DNA of 64,000 bases. It comes from Chthoniobacterales bacterium (GTDB taxonomy: Bacteria; Verrucomicrobiota; Verrucomicrobiia; Chthoniobacterales; UBA10450). Shown one piece after another: positions 1,765-23,249 of this stretch (position 1 is its first letter; each line of letters opens with the position of its first letter). The translations under genes and the position numbers were made by a program. The notes beneath the pieces were generated by a model, which saw only the letters and a program-made list of their open reading frames with translations, was not told the origin of the DNA and ran no database searches. The DNA lies in the NCBI GenBank assembly GCA_013821455.1, contig JACDGS010000006.1, forward strand, positions 1-64,000. The letters run 5' to 3'.

Positions 1765-3183
1765 CTAGTATTTCCGCCGCATGTTGCTCGGCAGAATGTT
1801 TAGCTCGGTGCGGTATTTTGCCACCGTCCGGCGCGCGATCGGGATGCCGCGTTTGCCGAGAATTTCGACGATTTCCTTGTCGCTCAACGGCGCGCTGCCG
1901 GACTCGGCTTTGACCAAATCCAAGATCGTTCCTTTCACGCTGGTGTTACTGACCGATTCGCCGCTCGCGGTCTGATACCCAGGCGTGAAAAAATATTTCA
2001 TCTCGAAAACACCCTGCGGCGTGGAGATGTATTTGCCGGAAATCGCGCGGCTCACTGTCGTCTCGTGGACGCCGACGGCTTCGGCGATTTGCACCATGGT
2101 CATCGGCTTGAGCTGCGCCGGGCCGTGCTCGAGGAATTCTTTCTGCCGCGAGACGATCTGGTGCGCGATGTTCGAGATCGTCTGCTGACGCTGGTAAATC
2201 GACTTGATGAGAAATTTCCCGCTGCGGATTTTGTCGCGGATGTAATCCTTCACCTCACCGCCGCTGCCGTCCTGCGACATGATGTCTTTGTAGGTGTTGC
2301 TGATGCGCAGGTGCGGAATCTGTTCGCCGTTGAGCATGATCTGGTATTGGCCCTGGATTTTCTCCACGGTCACATCGGGCAGGACGTAATTTTGCGGCGC
2401 TTCAGCGAAAATCGCGCCGGGTCGCGGGTCGAGCTGGGCGATGTTATTGGCGGATTTTTGCACCTGCTCGGCGTTGATTCCCATGCGCCGCGCTATCTCC
2501 GGGAAACGGCGTTTGCCGAGATCTTCCATGTGATCGGAAATGATTCGGTATTCGACACTGGTCTGCCGGCCTTCGCGTTTCAGTTGAATGAGCAGACACT
2601 CGCGCAAATCACGCGCGCCCACGCCCGGCGGATAGAAGCTCTGGAGAAGTGTGAGCATGAGCTCGAAATCCTCCTGCGGGATGCCGGTGTTCATCGACAT
2701 GTCTGCGGGCGTCGTCTGAAGAAAACCGTTGTCGTCGATGTTGCCGATGATGAGCTCGGCGGTCTTGCGATCGTCGCTGCTAAGAGCGGTCTGGTTGAGC
2801 TGGCCGACGAGATGTTGCTGGAGGGTTTCCTGCGTCGCGATGGAATCGAAAAAGAATTGCCGCTTATCTTCCTCCGCGCGCGAACGGCCGCCGTAGGTGC
2901 CCGACTGCGCCATGTAATCGCGCCATTCGTCATCGAGCTTCGCGAGCTGATCGAACTCTTCCTTGAACTTGTCATCCTCGGGCTCGCTGTCCGTCTCCTT
3001 CCGTTCTTCCGGGGTCGGATCGGCTAATTCTTCGAGGACTGGATTCGTCTCCATTTCCTGCTGGACGAGATTGCGCAACTCGAGCAGTGGGGCTTGGAGA
3101 ATGAGCAGACTCTGCTGGAGTTGCGGCGCGAGGACCTGCTGGAGGGAAAGATTCTGCGATTGGAACATACCCGGCCCGGCCAT
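1765..3183 (-). CDS. rpoN: RNA polymerase sigma-54 factor
   Basis: The alternative sigma factor that recognises -24/-12 promoters and needs AAA+ activators. From ATG 3183 the product is 472 residues: an N-terminal Gln/Leu-rich region I (QNLSLQQVLAPQLQQSLLILQAPLLEL) that contacts activators, an acidic region II, the core-binding region, an HTH segment (VGVHETTVSRAISGKY) and the C-terminal RpoN box ARRTVAKYR near the end. An alternative start is the ATG at 3168 (MFQSQNLS); neither has a strong Shine-Dalgarno sequence, and longer frames upstream have no family similarity. A sigma-54 activator is encoded at 16850-17848, so both partners needed to drive such promoters are in this window. Confidence 0.95.
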   Translation of the reverse strand: MAGPGMFQSQNLSLQQVLAPQLQQSLLILQAPLLELRNLVQQEMETNPVLEELADPTPEERKETDSEPEDDKFKEEFDQLAKLDDEWRDYMAQSGTYGGRSRAEEDKRQFFFDSIATQETLQQHLVGQLNQTALSSDDRKTAELIIGNIDDNGFLQTTPADMSMNTGIPQEDFELMLTLLQSFYPPGVGARDLRECLLIQLKREGRQTSVEYRIISDHMEDLGKRRFPEIARRMGINAEQVQKSANNIAQLDPRPGAIFAEAPQNYVLPDVTVEKIQGQYQIMLNGEQIPHLRISNTYKDIMSQDGSGGEVKDYIRDKIRSGKFLIKSIYQRQQTISNIAHQIVSRQKEFLEHGPAQLKPMTMVQIAEAVGVHETTVSRAISGKYISTPQGVFEMKYFFTPGYQTASGESVSNTSVKGTILDLVKAESGSAPLSDKEIVEILGKRGIPIARRTVAKYRTELNILPSNMRRKY

Positions 3184-3297
3184 GGGCTGAGGGTACCAGT
3201 GGCTCCGAGTGCCGCAAGCAAATTTCACGCCGCGAGAAACCGCACGCGGCAAAGGAACGTGAATTGCTTTTCTAACGCGGCAAACACCATCGCCGCT

Positions 3298-13540: not shown

Positions 13541-15282
13541 AAAGCGCGCTTACGCTGTAGCTCCGGCTCGATTTTGCCTAACGGCAGGCAATTCACCACA
13601 TCACTTTTCGTTAGCCATCCCTTTCGCGCGACGCCCACGCCGAACCACAATTCCTGCAGCTTCTCTACGCCGTGCGCGTCTGGGTTAATCACACATTTCA
13701 CCCCTTTCTCTTTCGCCAGCGGCCACCAGCGCCAATCCAGATCAAGGCGCTTCGGCGCCGCATTAATCTCCAGCCACGTCCCAGTCGCCGCGGCCGCTTC
13801 GATGACTGCCGGAATATCCACCGCGTACGCGTCACGTTTCAGCAACAGGCGTCCAGTCGGATGCGCCAGAAAAGTGACGTGCGGATTGGCGATCGCGCGG
13901 ATGATGCGCTCGGTCATCTCGGCTTCCGGCAGTTGGAAAGATGAATGAATCGAAGCGACCACGTAATCGAGTTCGCCTAACGTCTCGTCGTCGAAATCGA
14001 GCGAGCCGTCGCGCAGAATATCGCACTCGACGCCAGCGAAAAGGCGGAAACCGTCGAACGATTTGTTCAACTTGCGAATCGCGCTGACCTGCGCACGCAG
14101 GCGATCGGCAGCAAGACCGCCGGCTTGAATCGAACTCCGGCTGTGATCCGCGATGCCCAAGTATTGCAGCCCAAGTTCCTGCGCCGCCGCCGCCATTTCC
14201 TCGAGAGAATTTCTGCCGTCGCTCGCGCTGGTGTGACAATGAAACACACCACGTAAATTTTCCGGCTCGAGCAAACGCGGTAACCGCCCCTCCGCCGCAG
14301 CTTCGATTTCTCCTGAGTTTTCTCGCAGTTCCGGCGGGACAAAATCCAGTCCGAGGGCGCGGTAAAGTTCGGCCTCCTCGCGCACCGGAGGAATTTTCTC
14401 GGGCGCTTTTTTTCCAGTCTCGACCGGTGCCAGACGGTATTCGTTAAGGGTCCAGCCGCGTTGCAGAGCGCGGTTTCGCAAAACGATGTTGTGCTCCTTG
14501 CTCCCCGTAAAATAGCTGAGAGCAAATGGATACTCTGCGCCACTGACAACGCGGAGATCGGCCTGGATGCCAGAGTGCAAGCGCACGCTGGTTTTTGTCG
14601 TGCCTCGCGCGATGACGCCGTCAACGAGCGGGTGCCTAACGAAGGACTCGGTGACCGACTTCGGATTCTTTGTCGCGACGATGAAGTCCAGATCCCGCAC
14701 GATTTCTTTCCGCCGTCGATAGCTGCCCGCAACGCTGACTCGCAGCACTTCGGGATGCTGGCCGAGGTCGTTTTGTAACTGCTCCGCCTCGTTCGCCACC
14801 GCACCTAACTGAAAGCTGCCCACGTGTTTCGCGCGATCGGCGATGGTCTTGGCCAGCTTTTCCTGCGTCGCCTTTCCGAAACCCGGCAGCTCAGCGACCC
14901 GTCCCGCCGCGCAGGCTTGTGCCAAATCGCCAACCGAATTCACCTGTAGTTTTTCGTAGAGTGCTTTGATCTTTTTCGCCCCCAAGCCGGGTAACGAAAA
15001 AAGCTCCATGATGTCCTGGGGAAATTGCGCGCGGAGTTCATCGTAAAATTTCGACGAGCCTGTCAAAACCAACTCTCCGATTTTTCCCGCGATCGCTTTG
15101 CCAACACCGGGAATTTCGGTTAACCGATTTTCTTCAGCCAAAGTCCGTAGATCGCCCCCCCAGGTTTCCAGCGAACGGGCGGCGTTGGTGTAGGCGCGAA
15201 TTTTGAATGGATTTTCCTCCGCTTGCAGCTCAAGGAGCGTCGCGATCGTCTCGAGAATCTCCACGACCTGCTCTTTTTTCAT
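13525..15282 (-). CDS. polX: DNA polymerase X family with PHP domain
   Basis: A bacterial PolX of 585 residues from ATG 15282. It has an N-terminal 8-kDa helix-hairpin-helix part (LTEIPGVGKAIAGKIGEL; LPGLGAKKIKALYEKL), the palm with nucleotidyltransferase acidic residues (GSYRRRKEIVRDLDFIVAT), and a C-terminal PHP phosphoesterase with metal-binding motifs FHCHTSASDG, YLGIADHS, GVECDIL and INPDAHG. PolX enzymes fill gaps in base-excision and end repair, and the PHP domain adds exonuclease or phosphatase activity. The extreme C-terminus (about ALSSRA) is encoded by the repeat ending at 13540, so the ancestral end was probably replaced. Confidence 0.93.
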   Translation of the reverse strand: MKKEQVVEILETIATLLELQAEENPFKIRAYTNAARSLETWGGDLRTLAEENRLTEIPGVGKAIAGKIGELVLTGSSKFYDELRAQFPQDIMELFSLPGLGAKKIKALYEKLQVNSVGDLAQACAAGRVAELPGFGKATQEKLAKTIADRAKHVGSFQLGAVANEAEQLQNDLGQHPEVLRVSVAGSYRRRKEIVRDLDFIVATKNPKSVTESFVRHPLVDGVIARGTTKTSVRLHSGIQADLRVVSGAEYPFALSYFTGSKEHNIVLRNRALQRGWTLNEYRLAPVETGKKAPEKIPPVREEAELYRALGLDFVPPELRENSGEIEAAAEGRLPRLLEPENLRGVFHCHTSASDGRNSLEEMAAAAQELGLQYLGIADHSRSSIQAGGLAADRLRAQVSAIRKLNKSFDGFRLFAGVECDILRDGSLDFDDETLGELDYVVASIHSSFQLPEAEMTERIIRAIANPHVTFLAHPTGRLLLKRDAYAVDIPAVIEAAAATGTWLEINAAPKRLDLDWRWWPLAKEKGVKCVINPDAHGVEKLQELWFGVGVARKGWLTKSDVVNCLPLGKIEPELQRKRALSSRA

Positions 15283-15389
15283 CGAAGACACATGAAATAG
15301 TTGCGCGGAAAGTTCGGTGCGTCGATTGCTCCTGTGGCGTCGTTTGGATCCAGTGGCCCGCCTGGCACGCTTGCGGCTGCTGCACAGGC

Positions 15390-15917
15390 ATGAAGTTTTC
15401 GCGACGCGACGCCGTTTCTCTTAGCTTTATTGTTTTTTTTATCGCGAGTTCGATCTCGCGCGCCGATCAATTCCCGCTGCGGGGCCCAACGGTTCCGGGG
15501 AAAGTGGCAGAGTTGCGGCATGGTCTCGCTTGCGCCCCGGAAAAGGCTCCACTGGCGGTGAAGCGCGCCATTTGGGCGGGCAACCAACTGCGCAAACGCC
15601 CTTATCGCTGGGGCGGCGGTCACCGCTCCTTCAGCGACAGCGGCTACGATTGCTCAGGGACGGTTTCTTATGCCCTGGCTGCCGCTGGGCTACTCCGCGT
15701 CCCGATGAGTTCCAGCGATCTATTGCATTATGGAAGCAGTGGCCGCGGAAAATGGATAACGGTTTACGCCCGGAATGGCCACGCCTTTGCGGTCATCGCG
15801 GGATTGCGGCTCGACACCACGGCGTGGAACAGCCGCGGAGATCGTGATGCGCCGCGCTGGCATCCAGCCGACCGACCGCCGTCGGGTTTTGCCTCGCGTC
15901 ATCCGGACGGCCTATAG
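15390..15917 (+). CDS. Secreted NlpC/P60-type cell-wall peptidase
   Basis: A 175-residue product with a Tat/Sec-like N-terminus (MKFSRRDAVSLSFIVFFIASSISRA). Its NlpC/P60-like core contains YRWGGGH, SGYDCSGTVSYAL with catalytic Cys88, and NGHAFAVI with His131. Such enzymes cut gamma-D-Glu-diaminopimelate bonds in peptidoglycan stem peptides. ATG 15390 begins the signal peptide; the frame is open further upstream without similarity. The short C-terminus after RLDTTAWNSRG... resembles the family's end (DPRWH). Confidence 0.8.
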   Translation: MKFSRRDAVSLSFIVFFIASSISRADQFPLRGPTVPGKVAELRHGLACAPEKAPLAVKRAIWAGNQLRKRPYRWGGGHRSFSDSGYDCSGTVSYALAAAGLLRVPMSSSDLLHYGSSGRGKWITVYARNGHAFAVIAGLRLDTTAWNSRGDRDAPRWHPADRPPSGFASRHPDGL

Positions 15918-16013: not shown

Positions 16014-16184
16014 TCAGTTGAGCTTACGACCGACGCGAGCATCCGGCTGACGGCCAAACCGCGTGTTGGACTCCGAGCGCTTCGAGGCGATTCCGCCTTT
16101 GGCGTCTTTCGACGGTTTTAGGTCGCTGACTTTGACGCTCGGCTTTGTGCCGGAGCTTTTGCTGGTTTTCTTTGTTGTAGGCAT
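16014..16184 (-). CDS. Double-glycine leader peptide A (candidate exporter substrate)
   Basis: A 56-residue gene product. Residues 1-31 form a Lys/Ser-rich leader ending VKVSDLKPSKDAKGG; the remaining 25 residues (IASKRSESNTRFGRQPDARVGRKLN) are strongly basic. The leader block matches peptide B almost residue for residue (DLKPxKDAKGG) and peptide C more loosely, while the parts after GG are unrelated. This is the pattern of cleaved precursor peptides. The C39 peptidase of the exporter at 19055-22165 is the obvious processing enzyme. ATG 16184 is preceded by a weak AAGAGA site. Function of the mature peptide is unknown. Confidence 0.65.
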   Translation of the reverse strand: MPTTKKTSKSSGTKPSVKVSDLKPSKDAKGGIASKRSESNTRFGRQPDARVGRKLN

Positions 16185-16262
16185 ATTCTCTTAGTTTGTT
16201 GGGTTGAGTTTTCCATGAAGCCGGGCGGGATCGGACCGCGAAGCTTCCTTCGGTAGGACTCC

Positions 16263-16445
16263 TTACAGGAGACTGCGACCGCCGGCGCTGTTGGCGTTGC
16301 CGCCCTTCGTCGCATTCTGCTGGCTGCCACCGGTGCGATTCATCGAGTGACCCGAGGTATTTTGCTGCCGAGCCACGCCGCCTTTGGCGTCTTTGTTCGG
16401 TTTGAGGTCTTTCATCTTCACTTCTTTTTTCTTGTCTGTAGCCAT
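16263..16445 (-). CDS. Double-glycine leader peptide B (candidate exporter substrate)
   Basis: 60 residues. The leader MATDKKKEVKMKDLKPNKDAKGG (23 residues) is followed by a 37-residue Asn/Gln/Gly/Ser-rich core that contains further GG pairs (RTGG, TKGG, SAGG) and ends GGRSLL. ATG 16445 has a good AAGGAG site 9 bases upstream. The core has no Cys and only one Ser/Thr cluster, and no lanthionine, radical-SAM or other modifying enzyme is nearby, so an unmodified secreted peptide is the simplest idea. It shares its leader type with A and C. Second-site processing at the inner GG motifs is possible but speculative. Confidence 0.68.
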   Translation of the reverse strand: MATDKKKEVKMKDLKPNKDAKGGVARQQNTSGHSMNRTGGSQQNATKGGNANSAGGRSLL

Positions 16446-16450
16446 AATAA

Positions 16451-16591
16451 CTAACTCCTTTTTCTGTTTGTTGTTTGGTTGATGTCAGTCGCGCCGAAGA
16501 GTAATTGACGCCCGCCCGCGACATTCCCTTTTGGGATCAAGTCATCGAGCCGGATCAATTTTTCCTTCATGCGTTTCTGCTTCGGAATCAT
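16451..16591 (-). CDS. Double-glycine leader peptide C (candidate exporter substrate)
   Basis: 46 residues from ATG 16591, chosen because a perfect GGAGG lies just upstream. GTG 16636, with AGGAG, would add 15 residues. The leader ends EKLIRLDDLIPKGNVAGG, and a 19-residue core follows (RQLLFGATDINQTTNRKRS). DL and P sit at the same distances before GG as in peptides A and B, and the hydrophobic-basic-hydrophobic triplet (IRL) matches VKV/VKM in the others. The stop is 5 bp upstream of the peptide B start codon, so C and B form one transcript. It is the first of the three peptides in transcription order after the sigma-54 activator gene. Confidence 0.6.
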   Translation of the reverse strand: MIPKQKRMKEKLIRLDDLIPKGNVAGGRQLLFGATDINQTTNRKRS

Positions 16592-16849
16592 CGATTCCTC
16601 CGCTGGCGCATGTTTCTTTGTCTTCGGCGTACTCACGTTTGCGCTCCTATAACCACGATCCGTGCCGAGACCTCGCACGAGCGCAAATCCCGTCTTTGCT
16701 TATTCGTTAGGCAACACATCATCTGGCTGAAGATAAGTGATTTAGCAACATTCAAATTTTTTTAAGAAATTTTGGCAAGGCTAATTTTACAATCTAGAGG
16801 TGGATAACATTTGAGACCGATTTGCGGCCAGAGTATGCCGCGTCAGGTC

Positions 16850-17848
16850 CTATTTTGGAGCTATCTTTCGCAGGTGACGCGCCAGGGTCGCGCGCGAGAT
16901 ACCGAGAAGCCTTGCACTGCGCCGCTGGTTCCTTCCCGTTTGCTCATACACGAGGCTGATGTGTCGCATGAGCGCCTTTGAAAGCGAAAGATCGTTAGGC
17001 TCTTTTTCCTTGGGTTCGTTAGGCGCGATCTCGGGCGTTTCGGCGCCGACCTCTTCGGAGGCTACCTTCAGGTCGGGCGGGAAGACGACGTGCTCGGGAA
17101 GAATGACATGGCCGTCGCAGAATAGAGTCATCGTTCTGACCGTATGGCTGAGCTCGCGCAAGTTCCCCGGCCAGCCGTAAGCGAGCATCTTCTCCATCGC
17201 AGCGGGATGAATGGCAGTAATCTTTTTTCCCTCGCGCCGGCCAGACGCTTTGAGCTCGGCGGCGATGAGCGCGGGCAGCTCTTCCAGACGGTCGCGCAAC
17301 GGCGGGATAAGGAGGGTGAGTCCGTTCAGCCGGTGATAAAGGTCTTCGCGAAATTTTCCCTGCCGCACTCGTCCGAGCAACGAGCAATTCGTCGCGCAGA
17401 TGATGCGCACATCGCAGGTCAGCATTTGCTCGGAGCCGACGCGCTCGAACTCGCCGTACTCCAGCACGCGCAAAATTTTTACCTGCGCCAGCGGGCTCAT
17501 GTCCGCGATCTCGTCGAGGAAAAGAGTGCCTTGGTTGGCGAGCTCGAATTTTCCTTTCACTGTCGTCTGTGCGCCAGTGAAGGCGCCGCGTTCGTGGCCG
17601 AAAAGTTGACTCTCGATCAGCGTGTCGCTCATGGCCGAAGCGTTGAAGGCGACAAAGGCTTTCTCGGCCCGCGTGGAGGAGTTGTGAATGGCGTGCGCGA
17701 GCAGGGTTTTCCCCGTCCCGGTTTCGCCTAACAATACCACCGGGACATCGGAAGTGGCCGCCAGTTGCGCGAGACGCAGGCAACGCTCCATGGCTGGATT
17801 GGAGGTCGCGATCTCCTCGACCTTCAGCTTGGAAAGCGGCCGCAACAT
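16850..17848 (-). CDS. Sigma-54-dependent activator without sensory domain
   Basis: A 332-residue AAA+ enhancer-binding protein, PspF-like in layout. It has no receiver or PAS domain before the ATPase. Walker A GETGTGKT (41-48), the sigma-54-contacting loop GAFTGA (88-93), Walker B LFLDEIADM and an R-finger region follow. The C-terminal Fis-type HTH is NQRRSARLLGISRATLARHLRKI. It should open sigma-54 promoters with the RpoN encoded at 1765. It starts 6 bp after the hlyD stop, so it belongs to the export operon, and lies immediately upstream of the three peptide genes, which makes them likely targets. Regulation in the absence of a sensor domain must come from expression or a partner protein. 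Confidence 0.9.
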   Translation of the reverse strand: MLRPLSKLKVEEIATSNPAMERCLRLAQLAATSDVPVVLLGETGTGKTLLAHAIHNSSTRAEKAFVAFNASAMSDTLIESQLFGHERGAFTGAQTTVKGKFELANQGTLFLDEIADMSPLAQVKILRVLEYGEFERVGSEQMLTCDVRIICATNCSLLGRVRQGKFREDLYHRLNGLTLLIPPLRDRLEELPALIAAELKASGRREGKKITAIHPAAMEKMLAYGWPGNLRELSHTVRTMTLFCDGHVILPEHVVFPPDLKVASEEVGAETPEIAPNEPKEKEPNDLSLSKALMRHISLVYEQTGRNQRRSARLLGISRATLARHLRKIAPK

Positions 17849-17854
17849 GGCCGA

Positions 17855-19039
17855 TCAATCGCGCACGTTTTCGCGCAGTTGGCGGATCGGCTCGAACGCG
17901 TATTCCATGATCGTGCGCTGACCGATGACGACGCGCGCTTCGCCCGTCATGCCGACGCGCACCGCAAGCGGCCGTCTGCGTCCACTTGCCTTGCTCGAAT
18001 CAAGCGAAGCGAAAGCGACAAAGTGGGGACCTTCGGGAGACGAGACCGCGGCGGGGCTGACCCAATCGAGATTCGCATCGACGACGCCGTAACGTTGATA
18101 CGGAAACGCATCGAAGAAAAGGCGCACAGCGAGGCCGCTCGCGAGCTTTGGCAGGCCTGCTTCACTCACGGTCAATCGCACGCGTGGGTGGGCATCCAGA
18201 GGCGAGAGCTGGCAAAGTTCCTGCCCGTTTTGCACCACGCTGCCGGCGCTGCGCTGCGAGACGGAGATGACGACGCCATCGTAAGGCGCGCGAATGGTGA
18301 ACACGTTGAGCTCCGAGTTTTCCAAGTCACCGTGCAGCGCACTCAGGCGCACCTTCAACTTCTCGATTTCGGCCACGTTTTCGTCATGCACGCGAGTGTG
18401 TTCGTTGTTGAGTTGGGAAAGCTCGAGATGGACCTGCTGCAAAGTGCGTTGCGCTACGCTGAAATCTTTCTCCGACTCGGAGGCCTCGAGTTGGTAACGC
18501 AGCATCTCGACCTTGGAAATGCCGCCATTCCTGGTCAGCTTTTCCATGCGGTCGATTAGGTCTTTGGCGGTCGCGGCATGCTTCTCGCGGAACTTCACCT
18601 CACTCTCCGCCTGCGAGATTTCTGTGCTCTTGATTTCCGCCTGCGAAACGTAAGCAGCGTCCGACTTGGCCAGACCTTCCTCATGCGTATGCAAATCTTG
18701 CGAGAGCGTCCTCTGTTCCGTGTCCCAACCTCGAATTTCCTCGGAGCGCAGGAGGAAAAGCGGCGCCGCGCGTTTCACCGTTTGCCCCTCGGTCACGCGC
18801 ACTTGATCGACCACCGCGACCCGCGGCGATTGAATCGGATCAGCGCCGCTAGTGGGCACGAGAACGAATGGACAGATGACTGTCTCCGGCAATTTCACCA
18901 ACACCGAGGCGAGAAGCGCGACGAGGAACATCGAGATCAAAAGCCAGGCAATAGAGCGCACGAACCACGGCGGCGGATCCTGGGGCAACATCTCCGACGC
19001 GCCCTCGAGCGGATCGCGTTGCATGACGTCGTTAGGCAT
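17855..19039 (-). CDS. HlyD-family membrane-fusion (adaptor) protein
   Basis: 394 residues. One transmembrane helix near the N-terminus (about 26-49, VRSIAWLLISMFLVALLASVLV), a biotinyl-lipoyl half-motif (VDQVRVTEGQTVKRAAPLFLL), a long coiled-coil hairpin (about 105-240), the second lipoyl half (FTIRAPYDGVVISVSQRSAGSVVQNGQELCQL) and a beta-barrel region. Such adaptors link an inner-membrane ABC exporter to an outer-membrane channel. The gene follows the C39 exporter by 15 bp and precedes the sigma-54 activator by 6 bp. No TolC-like gene is present, so the outer channel must be encoded elsewhere. Confidence 0.88.
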   Translation of the reverse strand: MPNDVMQRDPLEGASEMLPQDPPPWFVRSIAWLLISMFLVALLASVLVKLPETVICPFVLVPTSGADPIQSPRVAVVDQVRVTEGQTVKRAAPLFLLRSEEIRGWDTEQRTLSQDLHTHEEGLAKSDAAYVSQAEIKSTEISQAESEVKFREKHAATAKDLIDRMEKLTRNGGISKVEMLRYQLEASESEKDFSVAQRTLQQVHLELSQLNNEHTRVHDENVAEIEKLKVRLSALHGDLENSELNVFTIRAPYDGVVISVSQRSAGSVVQNGQELCQLSPLDAHPRVRLTVSEAGLPKLASGLAVRLFFDAFPYQRYGVVDANLDWVSPAAVSSPEGPHFVAFASLDSSKASGRRRPLAVRVGMTGEARVVIGQRTIMEYAFEPIRQLRENVRD

Positions 19040-19054: not shown

Positions 19055-22000
19055 TTAGATGCCGAGCTGCTGGCTGGAGAGATAAAAATAGAGACCGCGC
19101 TGTGCCATCAATTGATCGTGATTGCCAACTTCAGCGACGGAGCCTTTTTCGAGGACCACGATGGCATCGGCTTCGCGAATCGTGCTCAGCCGATGCGCGA
19201 TCACGATCGTCGTCCGGCCCGCGGTGAGGCGGCCGAGATTGTCCTGAATCGCGCGTTCCGATTCTGTATCGAGCGCGCTCGTGGCTTCGTCGAAAATGAG
19301 GACCGGCGGGTTGTTGTAGATCGCGCGCCCGATGGCGATGCGCTGCTTTTGTCCGCCGGAAAGTGAGAGGCCCGACTCGCCGATTTTCGTCTCGTAACCC
19401 ATCGGCAGCCGCATGATGAAATCGTGCGCCGCCGCGGCCTGCGCGGCGACGAGCACGCGATCGAGATCGGGCTCCGCGTCGCCGAACGCGATGTTGCGCG
19501 CGATCGATTCGTTGAAGATGTGGTTCTCCTGCAAAACCATTCCGATGTGCCGCCTAACGTCGCGGTAATTTAGCGTTTTCAGATCGACGTTATCGAAAAG
19601 AATCGTGCCTTCCGTCGGTTCGAGCAGGCCGGCGATGAGCTTGATCAAAGTCGTTTTACCGCAACCGCTGCGTCCGACAAAGGCGATCATTTTTCCCGGC
19701 GCGATGTCGAGCGTGACGTTCGCGAGAATGTTAGGCGCTTCCGGTCCGCCGTATTTGAAACAGACATTTCGCAGTTCGATCCGCCCTTCCAAACTATGCA
19801 CCGGTGTCAGGCGCGACCGGTCGCGGCCCTGCTCCGGTTCCTGCTCGAAAACGTCGTTCAAGCGGTTCAATAAAACGGTCGTGAACTGCAAATTATCCCA
19901 CACGCCTAACGTTCGCAGGATGCCGCCGTAAGCCATCGCCGTGAGCGAGCTGAAAGCGACAAATCCGCCGATGCTGAGCGCGCCCGACATCACCTGATTT
20001 GCGCCGACCCAAAGGAAGATCGCAGTCGAAACCAGACCGATGCTTTGCAGCACACTGTCGTAGGTCATGACGATAAAACTGCTCCGGAAAATCTTGCGCG
20101 AGACGGAGAGAAATTCGTTCAGCATCATGTCGCGAAAAACGGATTCCGCCGCGGCGGCTTTGACCGCTTCGATGCCCTTGATCGCGTCGATTTGATGCGA
20201 GCTGTATTTGCCCTGGCTTTCCTCGACGCCGGCGAAAAGCGGCCGCAAAACCTTCTGTGAAAAATACATCAACCCGAGGTAAAGCGGCGTCGTGGCGAGG
20301 AACGCGAACATGAGCGACGGGCTGTAGATGATCATCAGCCCGAGCGCGCCCGCCAACTGCACGAGCGCAAGCACCGCGCCGATGCCGTGCTGCACCGCGA
20401 ACTGCCGCACCTGCCGCGCGCCATCGAGCCGGCGCTGAATGTCGCCGGTGCGCCGGCTGGTGAAATACGTCATCGGCAACGACAACATTTGCCGACTGAG
20501 AAAATCGAGGATCGCCGTGTCCAGTCTAACGGCCGCGAACGACAACAAATATTCCTGTGCGAGGGACGCGGCCTGCACGAAAAAAAGCGCCGCGCCCATC
20601 CCGAGCAGAATGACTTTGAGCAAGCTCACATTTTTTTCGACGATGACTTTGTCCACCACCATCTCGGTGAAAATCGGGAACAGGAGTTCGAGAAAAGTCA
20701 TCGCCACCGCGAGCAGCATGACCTGCGCGAAAATGACCTTGAACTTGGCCAGGAATGGAAATATCCACGTGAGACCGGGCTTGCTTTCGGGCGCGTTCGC
20801 AAAGGCTGTGGTGTAATCGAAGAGCGCCGCATAACCCGACCAGTTCTGCTCGAATTCCTTCCGCGGAATCTTGCGCAGCCCGCGCGCCGGATCGGCCACC
20901 CTAACGAACTTGTCGTTGACGTCGTAAAGCACCATCCAGTGGTTGCCTTCCCAATGGATGATCGCCGGCAGCGGCATCAGCGGCAGGTTGCGCAGCGACA
21001 CCTTCAGCGCGCGCGCGGCGAGGCCCAGTTCGGTGGCGGCGCGGCAGAGCGCTTTCAAACTCGTGCCGTCGGTTGAGGTGTGGCAAAGCTGGCGAATCCG
21101 CGCGAGCGAAACCTTGCGCCCGAAGTGGCGGCAGATCATGCCGAGACTCGCGGCGCCGCAATCCATCTCATCGATCTGCTCGATCGCTTCGATTTTGCGG
21201 ATGCGCTTTTTGCTTTTGCGAAAGAGTCCGCCCTCCTCCGCGAATGGCGCTTCGGCATCGTCACTCCGTTTTTCGGCGCCCTTGTCGAGCGCGACCTTAT
21301 TCTGCATCGCCGTCTCAGCCGGGAGCATTTCGGTCGAGAAATCGAGCGGCACGCGCGCTTCCGTTTTCGCCTGATATTGCGCGAGCCGTTCCTCCATCAA
21401 CTTCCCAAACTCCGGATAACGCCGCTTCAGATCGCGCACCGCTTCCGGGCCCAGCGCGAGCAGGCGGCAATCGGTGTAAGCCTCGATCGTCGCGGCGCGC
21501 GGCGAGCCATTCAGAATCGAGAGCTCGCCAAAAAAATCGCCGTCGCGGTAAAAAGCGAGGTTGCGTTGCGAGCCGTTGTTTTGCGTGAAGGCGCGCGCGC
21601 GACCTTTCTCGAGGATAAACATCGCGCCGGGCGCGTCGCCTTGTTTGATGATCGCGCGACCTTTCGCGACTTCGACTGGCTCCAGCTTCTCGATCAGGCT
21701 GCGCAGAGCCGGCACGGGCAGCCGGCCGAAATTGCTGAACTGATAAAGAAAGCCGTGGAGCGAGCGATGCCGCGCGGTCAGTTCGAGATGACGTTTCAGT
21801 TCTGGATTTCGCTCCGCGACTTCGAGGAAATCCGCGCGATCGAGACGCAGAGTTTCCACCGCGGTACTACAGCGAACGGTCGCGCTGCGGGTCCCACCTT
21901 CGCCGAGAGCGGCTTCGCCAAAACTGTCGCCCGGCTTCAAACTCGCGAGCACCACTTCGGTGCCGTTTTGATCGGCCTTCACCACCCGCGCGCGGCCGGA

Positions 22001-22165
22001 CATGAGGATGTAAAACGAATCCGCCGCATCGCCCTGCCTAACGATAAGATCGCCGAACTCGTAATGCTCTTCCTCGAGTAGCGCGCGGAGTTTTTCGAAA
22101 TGCTCTTCCGGAAGAAATTGAAAAAGCGAAGCTCGCCGGAGGAGAGTGTCGTCGGTCGCCTTCAT
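19055..22165 (-). CDS. C39-peptidase ABC exporter with two N-terminal cyclic-nucleotide-binding domains
   Basis: 1036 residues in five modules. cNMP-binding domain 1 (about 15-125) has a degenerate phosphate cassette (FGEAALGEGGTRSATV). cNMP domain 2 (about 142-255) has a canonical cassette, FGELSILNGSPRAATI, with conserved Glu and Arg. The C39 peptidase (about 325-450) has an intact triad: Cys336 in QIDEMDCGAAS, His409 in GNHWMVLY and Asp425 in VADPARG. Membrane helices occupy about 465-760. The ABC ATPase has Walker A GRSGCGKTT (830-838), LSGGQKQR and LIFDEAT. It should cleave double-glycine leaders and export the peptides in an ATP-driven step. Three such leaders are encoded 2.5 kb downstream. 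Gene order and spacing place it in an operon with the PPIase (4 bp gap) and HlyD. Confidence 0.92.
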   Translation of the reverse strand: MKATDDTLLRRASLFQFLPEEHFEKLRALLEEEHYEFGDLIVRQGDAADSFYILMSGRARVVKADQNGTEVVLASLKPGDSFGEAALGEGGTRSATVRCSTAVETLRLDRADFLEVAERNPELKRHLELTARHRSLHGFLYQFSNFGRLPVPALRSLIEKLEPVEVAKGRAIIKQGDAPGAMFILEKGRARAFTQNNGSQRNLAFYRDGDFFGELSILNGSPRAATIEAYTDCRLLALGPEAVRDLKRRYPEFGKLMEERLAQYQAKTEARVPLDFSTEMLPAETAMQNKVALDKGAEKRSDDAEAPFAEEGGLFRKSKKRIRKIEAIEQIDEMDCGAASLGMICRHFGRKVSLARIRQLCHTSTDGTSLKALCRAATELGLAARALKVSLRNLPLMPLPAIIHWEGNHWMVLYDVNDKFVRVADPARGLRKIPRKEFEQNWSGYAALFDYTTAFANAPESKPGLTWIFPFLAKFKVIFAQVMLLAVAMTFLELLFPIFTEMVVDKVIVEKNVSLLKVILLGMGAALFFVQAASLAQEYLLSFAAVRLDTAILDFLSRQMLSLPMTYFTSRRTGDIQRRLDGARQVRQFAVQHGIGAVLALVQLAGALGLMIIYSPSLMFAFLATTPLYLGLMYFSQKVLRPLFAGVEESQGKYSSHQIDAIKGIEAVKAAAAESVFRDMMLNEFLSVSRKIFRSSFIVMTYDSVLQSIGLVSTAIFLWVGANQVMSGALSIGGFVAFSSLTAMAYGGILRTLGVWDNLQFTTVLLNRLNDVFEQEPEQGRDRSRLTPVHSLEGRIELRNVCFKYGGPEAPNILANVTLDIAPGKMIAFVGRSGCGKTTLIKLIAGLLEPTEGTILFDNVDLKTLNYRDVRRHIGMVLQENHIFNESIARNIAFGDAEPDLDRVLVAAQAAAAHDFIMRLPMGYETKIGESGLSLSGGQKQRIAIGRAIYNNPPVLIFDEATSALDTESERAIQDNLGRLTAGRTTIVIAHRLSTIREADAIVVLEKGSVAEVGNHDQLMAQRGLYFYLSSQQLGI

Positions 22166-22169
22166 TTCG

Positions 22170-23249
22170 TTAGGGAAGAACTCTGCGCCACTGAATGTGG
22201 TTTGAGCAAAGCTCGGCGAAATGCCGGTCGAGAATGCGATCTTCCGCGCGCTCTTTTACCATCGGGTCCTCCAAATTTGGCTCCGCTTTGCCGATGATCC
22301 GGCAGAGATGAAAACCTTCGCCGTGCGTGATCGGCTCGAGCGTTTCGCCCGGCGTGACGCTGAGAAATTTTTGCTGCAGATCCTCCGGCACATCTTCGAG
22401 CAGCACCTCGGTATGCCGATAGGGATAACGTCCTTCGCTCGCCACCTCCTCCATCGTCATGCCGTCCTGTTGCACGCAGAGGAGACCTTCCCGCGCGGCA
22501 TCGAGCGAATCAAACTCCAGGGTTTCCACTTCAAAATTTGTCAGCGGCAAACGGAGCGCGGAAATTTCGCGGGCCCGCGCTTCAGGAGAAAGCAGCGCCG
22601 CACATGCGCGGTGGTAAATTGCTTCCATCGCGATCTGCGCGCGCAGCCATTCCTCGTTGCGTCCCAGTTTGCCTAACCAATCATTTTCCTCACTCTCGGG
22701 CAGACCTTGTCGCTCGCGGAAATTCGCCTCCGCCACCGCGAAAATTTGCGCGTCCGCTTCTTCTTTCGCCGCGGCTTTTGCTGCAACGCGCCAGCTCAGA
22801 CGTTGTGCCATGCCATCGAGTTCACCTGAAAAAGTCAGCTCCATCGTGAAAAGCGCGCGCAAGTCTTCCGGCGCCGCCAGATAATCCGCCGCGTCGGTGG
22901 CGCCATCGTCCTCCGCCGTCTCGCTCCAATAACGCCTAACGAAATAACTGCTAAAATCCCCTAACGACAGCCCGCGTTCCGCGAGCCACTTCTCCGTCTC
23001 TTCCGCCGTGATCAAATCGTGGTTGTAACGAAACCGTTCCGCGGCGGTGTCGATCGCTTCATCGTCCGCTTCCTGCCCGGCTTCATCGGCTTTCTCTTCC
23101 ACCGCGATCTCGCGCAGAAAATTTTTCCAAGACGCCGCCACTTCTCCGCGAAAGTGCGCGGCATCAATCACATCGCGCACGGAAAAATTGCGATCTCCGC
23201 TGCCGAAAACAACCCTGCTCTCGACTGCATCTTGATTAGCTTCGGCCAT
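22170..23249 (-). CDS. SurA/PpiC-like peptidyl-prolyl isomerase or foldase
   Basis: 359 residues without a clear signal peptide. The N-terminal two thirds are helical and acidic, and the last third resembles a parvulin-type PpiC domain (FDSLDAAREGLLCVQQDGMTMEEVASEG...LQQKFLSVTPGETLEPITHGEGFHLCRIIGKAEP), followed by a C-terminal helix, as in SurA-type chaperones. First gene of the minus-strand export operon, 4 bp before the C39 exporter. A cytoplasmic foldase that keeps peptide precursors export-competent is a reasonable inference. The parvulin similarity is moderate and active-site residues are not certain. Confidence 0.65.
   Translation of the reverse strand: MAEANQDAVESRVVFGSGDRNFSVRDVIDAAHFRGEVAASWKNFLREIAVEEKADEAGQEADDEAIDTAAERFRYNHDLITAEETEKWLAERGLSLGDFSSYFVRRYWSETAEDDGATDAADYLAAPEDLRALFTMELTFSGELDGMAQRLSWRVAAKAAAKEEADAQIFAVAEANFRERQGLPESEENDWLGKLGRNEEWLRAQIAMEAIYHRACAALLSPEARAREISALRLPLTNFEVETLEFDSLDAAREGLLCVQQDGMTMEEVASEGRYPYRHTEVLLEDVPEDLQQKFLSVTPGETLEPITHGEGFHLCRIIGKAEPNLEDPMVKERAEDRILDRHFAELCSNHIQWRRVLP

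Follow-up and report, generated by a model that had tools for sequence, protein, structure and literature searches.

Among the described exporters with a C39 peptidase and an ABC transporter (PCATs), PCAT1 requires leucine at positions -7 and -12 of the leader and glutamate at -8, a knot bound by residues A55 and I59 of the peptidase (PMC6959990). In HetC of Nostoc a cNMP domain is joined to an ABC exporter whose C39 peptidase appears to be active; it has no membrane fusion protein gene nearby and no identified substrate, and the authors of that study discuss the possibility that the N-terminal part, once cleaved, stays inside and acts there (PMC10986499). A PCAT also occurs in the graspetide clusters of MirC, a member of TIGR04500 that is needed for graspetide formation (PMC13097080), and the Cdz system of Caulobacter combines a type I exporter with two small Gly-rich peptides, CdzC and CdzD (75% Gly and small hydrophobic residues), and an essential immunity gene (PMC5380434).

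The window, a stretch of 64,000 nt from a Chthoniobacterales bacterium (contig JACDGS010000006.1, positions 1 to 64,000), holds an operon with the transcription order SurA/PpiC-like protein, cNMP-cNMP-C39-ABC exporter, HlyD, sigma54 activator, pep1, pep2 (and pep3) (Table 1). With a probability of about 70%, the operon is dedicated to peptide secretion and includes its own cargo, namely hydrophilic and mostly unmodified peptides that act outside the cell. The reading is built on the gene order, its conservation, a promoter-like site, the rules of the leader, the catalytic residues, the co-occurrence of leader and exporter genes, and a constraint on composition; from these we infer cleavage, export, nucleotide gating and a role outside the cell.

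Table 1. Features of the peptide operon and related genes (window coordinates, except for the last row)
Feature	Position	Strand	Remarks
SurA/PrsA/PpiC-like protein	22170..23249	-	without apparent signal peptide; distant relative of TIGR04500
Exporter	19055..22165	-	two cNMP-binding domains, C39 peptidase, ABC permease and ATPase
HlyD-type membrane fusion protein	17855..19039	-	
sigma54 activator	16850..17848	-	AAA+ domain with GAFTGA, Fis-type HTH, no receiver domain
sigma54-type -24/-12 site	16648..16667	-	CGGCACGGATCGTGGTTATA; just before the pep1 GTG
pep1 precursor	16451..16636	-	leader ...KLIRLDDLIPKGNVAGG, conserved core RQLLFGATDINQTTNRKRS; GTG start
pep2 precursor, 60 aa	16263..16445	-	leader ...EVKMKDLKPNKDAKGG, hypervariable polar core of 37 aa
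pep3 precursor, 56 aa	16014..16184	-	leader ...SVKVSDLKPSKDAKGG, core of 25 aa
rpoN (sigma54)	1765..3252	-	away from the operon; RpoN box (ARRTVAKYR) at the sequence end
Further leader gene, own genome, unlinked	L157:3412-3546 (G000:C45)		leader MAQKKEINQDGEQPEVDLKDLMPPEDPKGG, ending in ...DLKDLMPPEDPKGG; core AKPIKPFNPQPDPPA

No C39 domain was found in the genome apart from that of the exporter, where it is fused to an ABC permease and ATPase; its catalytic Gln, Cys, His and Asp align with those of solved PCATs. The likeness to PCAT1/CtA, LahT and ComA extends to these intact residues, the GG site, a small or hydrophobic residue at -4 and variable cargo, whereas L-12, E-8 and L-7 are absent here and D-11, L-10 and P-8 are found instead. 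The position of the cNMP domains, N-terminal to the C39 domain, is that of a HetC-like cNMP-PCAT; unlike HetC, the locus has two such domains, an HlyD gene within the operon and candidate substrates beside the exporter. Since HetC lacks an identified substrate (PMC10986499), candidates that share an operon with a cNMP-C39 exporter, under a testable promoter, are useful. Compared with NHLP-type export (TIGR03796, TIGR03794), the exporter and HlyD score far below the cut-offs (528 of 853 bits and 44 of 156, respectively), and neither NHLP nor Nif11 leader models matched the three peptides at any value up to E = 1. The SurA/PpiC-like protein is distantly similar to TIGR04500 (29.6 against a cut-off of 180); its structure is confidently predicted (pLDDT 89.7) and resembles the chaperones PrsA and SurA by parts, with low whole-chain TM-scores. 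The graspetide clusters of MirC likewise include a PCAT, but no graspetide synthetase (ATP-grasp) is found among the conserved genes of the module here. An analogy with Cdz was considered and dropped because hydropathy differs and the immunity gene is missing: Cdz has hydrophobic cores, an RTX-like signal and an immunity gene, whereas the cores here are hydrophilic, the leader is of the GG type and no conserved immunity-like gene was seen in the module at the loci compared, where a small or unlinked one could escape notice. An NlpC/P60-type gene (15207-15917, plus strand) is convergent with pep3 and lies near the operon in the window's genus only.

Precursor genes and leader

A preliminary description of the window had placed three tiny genes at 16014-16591, on the strand of a C39 exporter operon and just downstream from it. 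All three were found as minus-strand ORFs in this position, with leaders that match the earlier reading letter for letter and with 25 (pep3), 37 (pep2) and 19 (pep1) residues after the GG. For pep1 the stop at 16451 was confirmed, but the end at 16591 had to be moved, as it corresponds to an internal ATG and relatives keep the GTG at 16636; from this GTG the product reads MSTPKTKKHAPAEESMIPKQKRMKEKLIRLDDLIPKGNVAGG (leader) followed by RQLLFGATDINQTTNRKRS (core). In a whole-genome search with a leader profile that contains pep2 and pep3 themselves plus 17 sequences from other genes, pep3 was recovered at E = 4.8e-10 and pep2 at E = 1.4e-9. The pep2-type profile missed pep1, whose probable kinship to the other two is suggested by motif, spacing (D-L-x-P-x5-GG) and neighbourhood. 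The unlinked leader gene of the same genome reached E = 0.18 with model A3 and E = 1.1e-6 with model A4, the latter value being circular since A4 contains this sequence. Searches of Pfam, NCBIfam and PHROGs left the three peptides unmatched save for a single match at the level of chance (E = 0.072, 13.4 bits, cut-off 165), in line with the earlier remark that the leader was not recognised as a named class, and a literature search found neither the leader string DLKPKKDAKGG nor a fitting system.

The leader is a non-canonical double-glycine leader with D-11, L-10, P-8 and polar residues at -7 and -12. In 30 distinct leaders of pep1 and 81 of other genes, -4, -10, -13 and -15 are hydrophobic, and Asp -11, Pro -8 and Gly-Gly are present. 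The collecting patterns had preset D-11, L/M-10, P-8, D-5, the residue class at -4 and the GG in the pep2-type set, and everything from -16 to -8 in the pep1 set; free of pattern bias are -15, -13, -12 and -7 in the former and -7 and -4 in the latter. The canonical L(-12)xxxE(-8)L(-7)xxxxGG is not present as such: the GG is kept and -8 is proline throughout, while hydrophobic residues make up 0% (pep1) and 21% (others) at -7 and 0–1% at -12, a letter that the pattern fixed for pep1. Between relatives the pep1 and pep2 leaders each retain 74% median identity, and this conservation beside a C39 exporter supports the original interpretation of the genes as precursors of exported peptides.

The residues A55 and I59 of the PCAT1 pocket are replaced as well. 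In an alignment with the solved chain (numbering offset by three), the equivalents are Leu and Cys in the window, and Leu followed by Cys, Ser, Val or Thr in the orthologues. As the leader departs from the canonical rule and the pocket residues are changed, the window's C39 peptidase would be a related enzyme with a different recognition code, provided that the leader is cut, and the system offers a test case for how C39 domains choose their cargo. The same departure, the absence of a Leu -7/-12 knot that is essential to PCAT1 (PMC6959990), counts against the proposed secretion operon.

Cores, promoter-like site and distribution

The cores had been described as unrelated, which holds between the three genes and fails across relatives. 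The pep1 core has a median identity of 56% over 34 syntenic loci compared to 21% when shuffled, with a motif FG[A/V]TD, whereas the pep2 core (27% in 34 syntenic pairs) does not differ from its shuffled counterpart (27%) and the constraint on pep2-type cores is one of composition. Gly, Ser, Thr, Asn, Gln, His and Pro account for 71% of the translation of the pep2 core DNA in frame compared to 33–48% in the five other frames, a difference that, unlike the lack of in-frame stops, does not result from the choice of ORF. The conserved pep1 core indicates that the three genes are not equivalent; as the pep2 core is biased in composition and not conserved in sequence, pep1 would be the constant component and pep2 and pep3 the variable one, probably a fast-changing repertoire held only to a composition rich in those seven residues. 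Cores selected for composition and free of fixed sequence are unusual among bacterial secreted peptides. Overall, the cores are hydrophilic (median GRAVY near -1.1), and the predicted mature peptides of the window (19, 37 and 25 aa) are very hydrophilic, cationic and, as had been noted, without Cys, a residue that occurs in two of 58 pep2-type cores. A leader gene near 5902 of contig L100 has the core LLLPAVQKIREAAAR, which resembles the start of DUF1559-type pilin-like proteins, and at L125 and L191 a leader gene lies amid several large proteins that look secreted and contain NTAEGxxAL...NTAVG repeats.

From the activator to pep1 the sequence is divergent, apart from a GGCA-N7-TG-N-T motif that occurs shortly upstream of the GTG in 29 of 32 loci; two of the three loci without it had a wrong start cut by the alignment. 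The GG-N10-G spacing is that of sigma54 sites, and the GG, the spacing and the G at -12 are invariant in the 29 loci, which have G, A or T in place of the C of the -12 GC; a sigma54 activator is present. With one mismatch allowed, the pattern occurs once elsewhere in the window's own genome (G000:C110), and this second sigma54-type match was discarded as it falls inside an ORF. The product of rpoN, identified by a reading of its sequence, is the presumed partner of the pep1 promoter.

Exporter orthologues in the genus, family and order are 70–93% identical over the full length, gene order is unchanged in nearly all loci long enough to judge, and the module is conserved across a Chthoniobacterales family. 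Among 83 genomes of this family, leader genes were found in 48 and the exporter in 47 (42 with both, six with leaders only, five with the exporter only, 30 with neither; Fisher p = 1.0e-11), where p is inflated by relatedness, as genomes are counted in place of independent events, and nearly all relatives are metagenome bins. Many of the 11 discordant genomes are incomplete. Given this inflation, the genus level gives the more cautious view (leaders in eight and exporter in nine of 14 genera). As to the check proposed in the preliminary description, for small leader ORFs near cNMP-C39 exporters, the leader is conserved in relatives, with the same order in dozens of genomes. A single genome has up to 12 leader genes, many of them in that case on contigs other than that of the exporter. 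When DLxPxKDxKGG was sought in 84,980 species, each represented by one genome, 64 stretches matched, almost all of them from Verrucomicrobia or Chthoniobacterales, and the leader profile matched four of 286 genomes spread over the class. Among the exceptions in the scan are contigs from Acidobacteria (L090) and Verrucomicrobiales (L100), in both of which the leader gene is close to genes for a related exporter and a PpiC-like protein; another Acidobacteria contig (L118) is almost identical to a verrucomicrobial paralogue and is probably mis-binned. Remoter C39-type exporters (L046, L047) had no leader genes of this kind, and no small leader-like ORF was found at a Saprospiraceae match (L079). 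The carriers are Chthoniobacterales, and some of the genomes are labelled Candidatus Udaeobacter; these are soil bacteria known chiefly through metagenomes.

A third type of leader (MKTQIPNINVVRSAWRRVKKDIKDAIIRDLKPVKDVKGGGG...) occurs within a block of 250–580 bp at L099, L089, L117, L198 and other loci. Copies at unrelated sites are mostly 85–97% identical, that at L099 lies between direct repeats of ~43 bp, and the block is perhaps a mobile peptide-gene cassette.

Proposed function and possible modification of the cargo

In the proposed mechanism, sigma54 RNA polymerase and the adjacent activator would transcribe pep1-pep2-pep3 from the -24/-12 site, and the SurA-like protein, having no apparent signal peptide, would hold or deliver the precursors in the cytoplasm. 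Recognition of the D-11/L-10/P-8 leader and the cut after Gly-Gly would fall to the exporter's C39 domain, the exporter may be gated by a ligand of its two cNMP domains, and the mature peptide would leave via exporter, HlyD and an unlinked TolC-like channel. Outside the cell the most likely role, judged from composition and the lack of a visible immunity gene, is that of signalling or surface/matrix peptides in preference to pore-forming bacteriocins; nothing here separates the first two. The data point to an undescribed family of secreted peptides in which tag and machine were kept and most cargo changed, in dozens of genomes. Whether this amounts to a new class, defined by a PCAT that is gated by nucleotides, controlled by sigma54 and reads a new leader code, and by a constant peptide accompanied by up to a dozen polar ones that differ from genome to genome and are selected for composition and not for sequence, is a tentative proposal with slightly less than even chances; if true, it would supply candidate substrates for cNMP-PCAT exporters, of which HetC is the best-studied member.

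The operon form, with C39 exporter, HlyD and several small precursors, would also suit bacteriocins, either class II microcin-like or two-peptide toxins (pep1 and pep2) left unmodified, with the variable core setting the target range; Gly-rich variable cores and small repertoires that vary among close relatives are reminiscent of these. The cores are strongly hydrophilic, unlike CdzC and CdzD (PMC5380434), no conserved immunity gene was seen with them at the loci compared and a composition without fixed sequence is ill-suited to a receptor-directed toxin, so that a pore-forming bacteriocin in particular fits poorly, and toxins as a whole are improbable. It is more doubtful still that the leader itself is what acts, for instance as a regulator left in the cell after cleavage, with the core a disposable polar tail that marks or lubricates export: a conserved leader on an unconserved pep2 core and the model of the HetC authors for an N-terminal part acting inside (PMC10986499) agree with it, but the pep1 core is conserved, the cores retain a marked composition and the leaders are positioned as a PCAT export signal. 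Chance or mis-called ORFs, which the shortness of the genes might suggest, are already refuted by conservation in relatives, with order, start codon, spacing and promoter-like site kept in dozens of genomes and an in-frame composition unlike that of all other frames.

Unlinked enzymes might modify the Ser/Thr/His/Gly-rich cores before export, the peptides then being RiPP precursors whose leader serves both enzyme and exporter. This is rather unlikely. The window's operon has no LanKC or LanL and its cores no Cys, and the earlier statement that no modifying enzyme is nearby holds for the conserved module while failing for a few relatives. Leader genes adjoin cyclase-less RamC_N-kinase (LanL-type) enzymes in G354 and G362, where two cores bear Cys, and in G339 activator and pep1 are separated by a methyltransferase, with the promoter-like site after it; a methyltransferase near a leader gene in L090 and the distant relationship of the PpiC-like protein to TIGR04500 and MirC (PMC13097080) agree with modification as well. 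Against it stand the conserved module, which carries no modification enzyme, and the rarity of Cys in pep2-type cores. A LanL-like enzyme in the window's own genome was weighed as a modifier and lost ground, as it is unlinked to the operon and has an equivalent in G022, a genome in which both leaders and exporter are absent. The secretion of unmodified peptides is preferred for the conserved operon; given the RamC/LanL-type enzymes and the G339 methyltransferase near leader genes, 'unmodified' cannot safely be said of all members, and judging by these neighbourhoods some of the leader family may undergo modification. Such a branch would be represented best by two candidate leader genes at L189:2856-4953, beside a RamC_N-kinase-like gene, with cores that end in Cys or nearly so (RISVVNCG, RPIYGSRLC).

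Methyltransferases similar to each other (..IYE[KR]RPYP..) adjoin leader genes in two distant loci, L199:3602-4795 and L090:4395-5591. Cyclase-less LanL-like enzymes (RamC_N and kinase) also occur in a conserved neighbourhood at L150:6028-7619, L153:5610-7270, L154:778-2951 and L155:6137-7781, each preceded by a small ORF of ~105–135 aa without a family match, possibly a separate peptide-modification locus.
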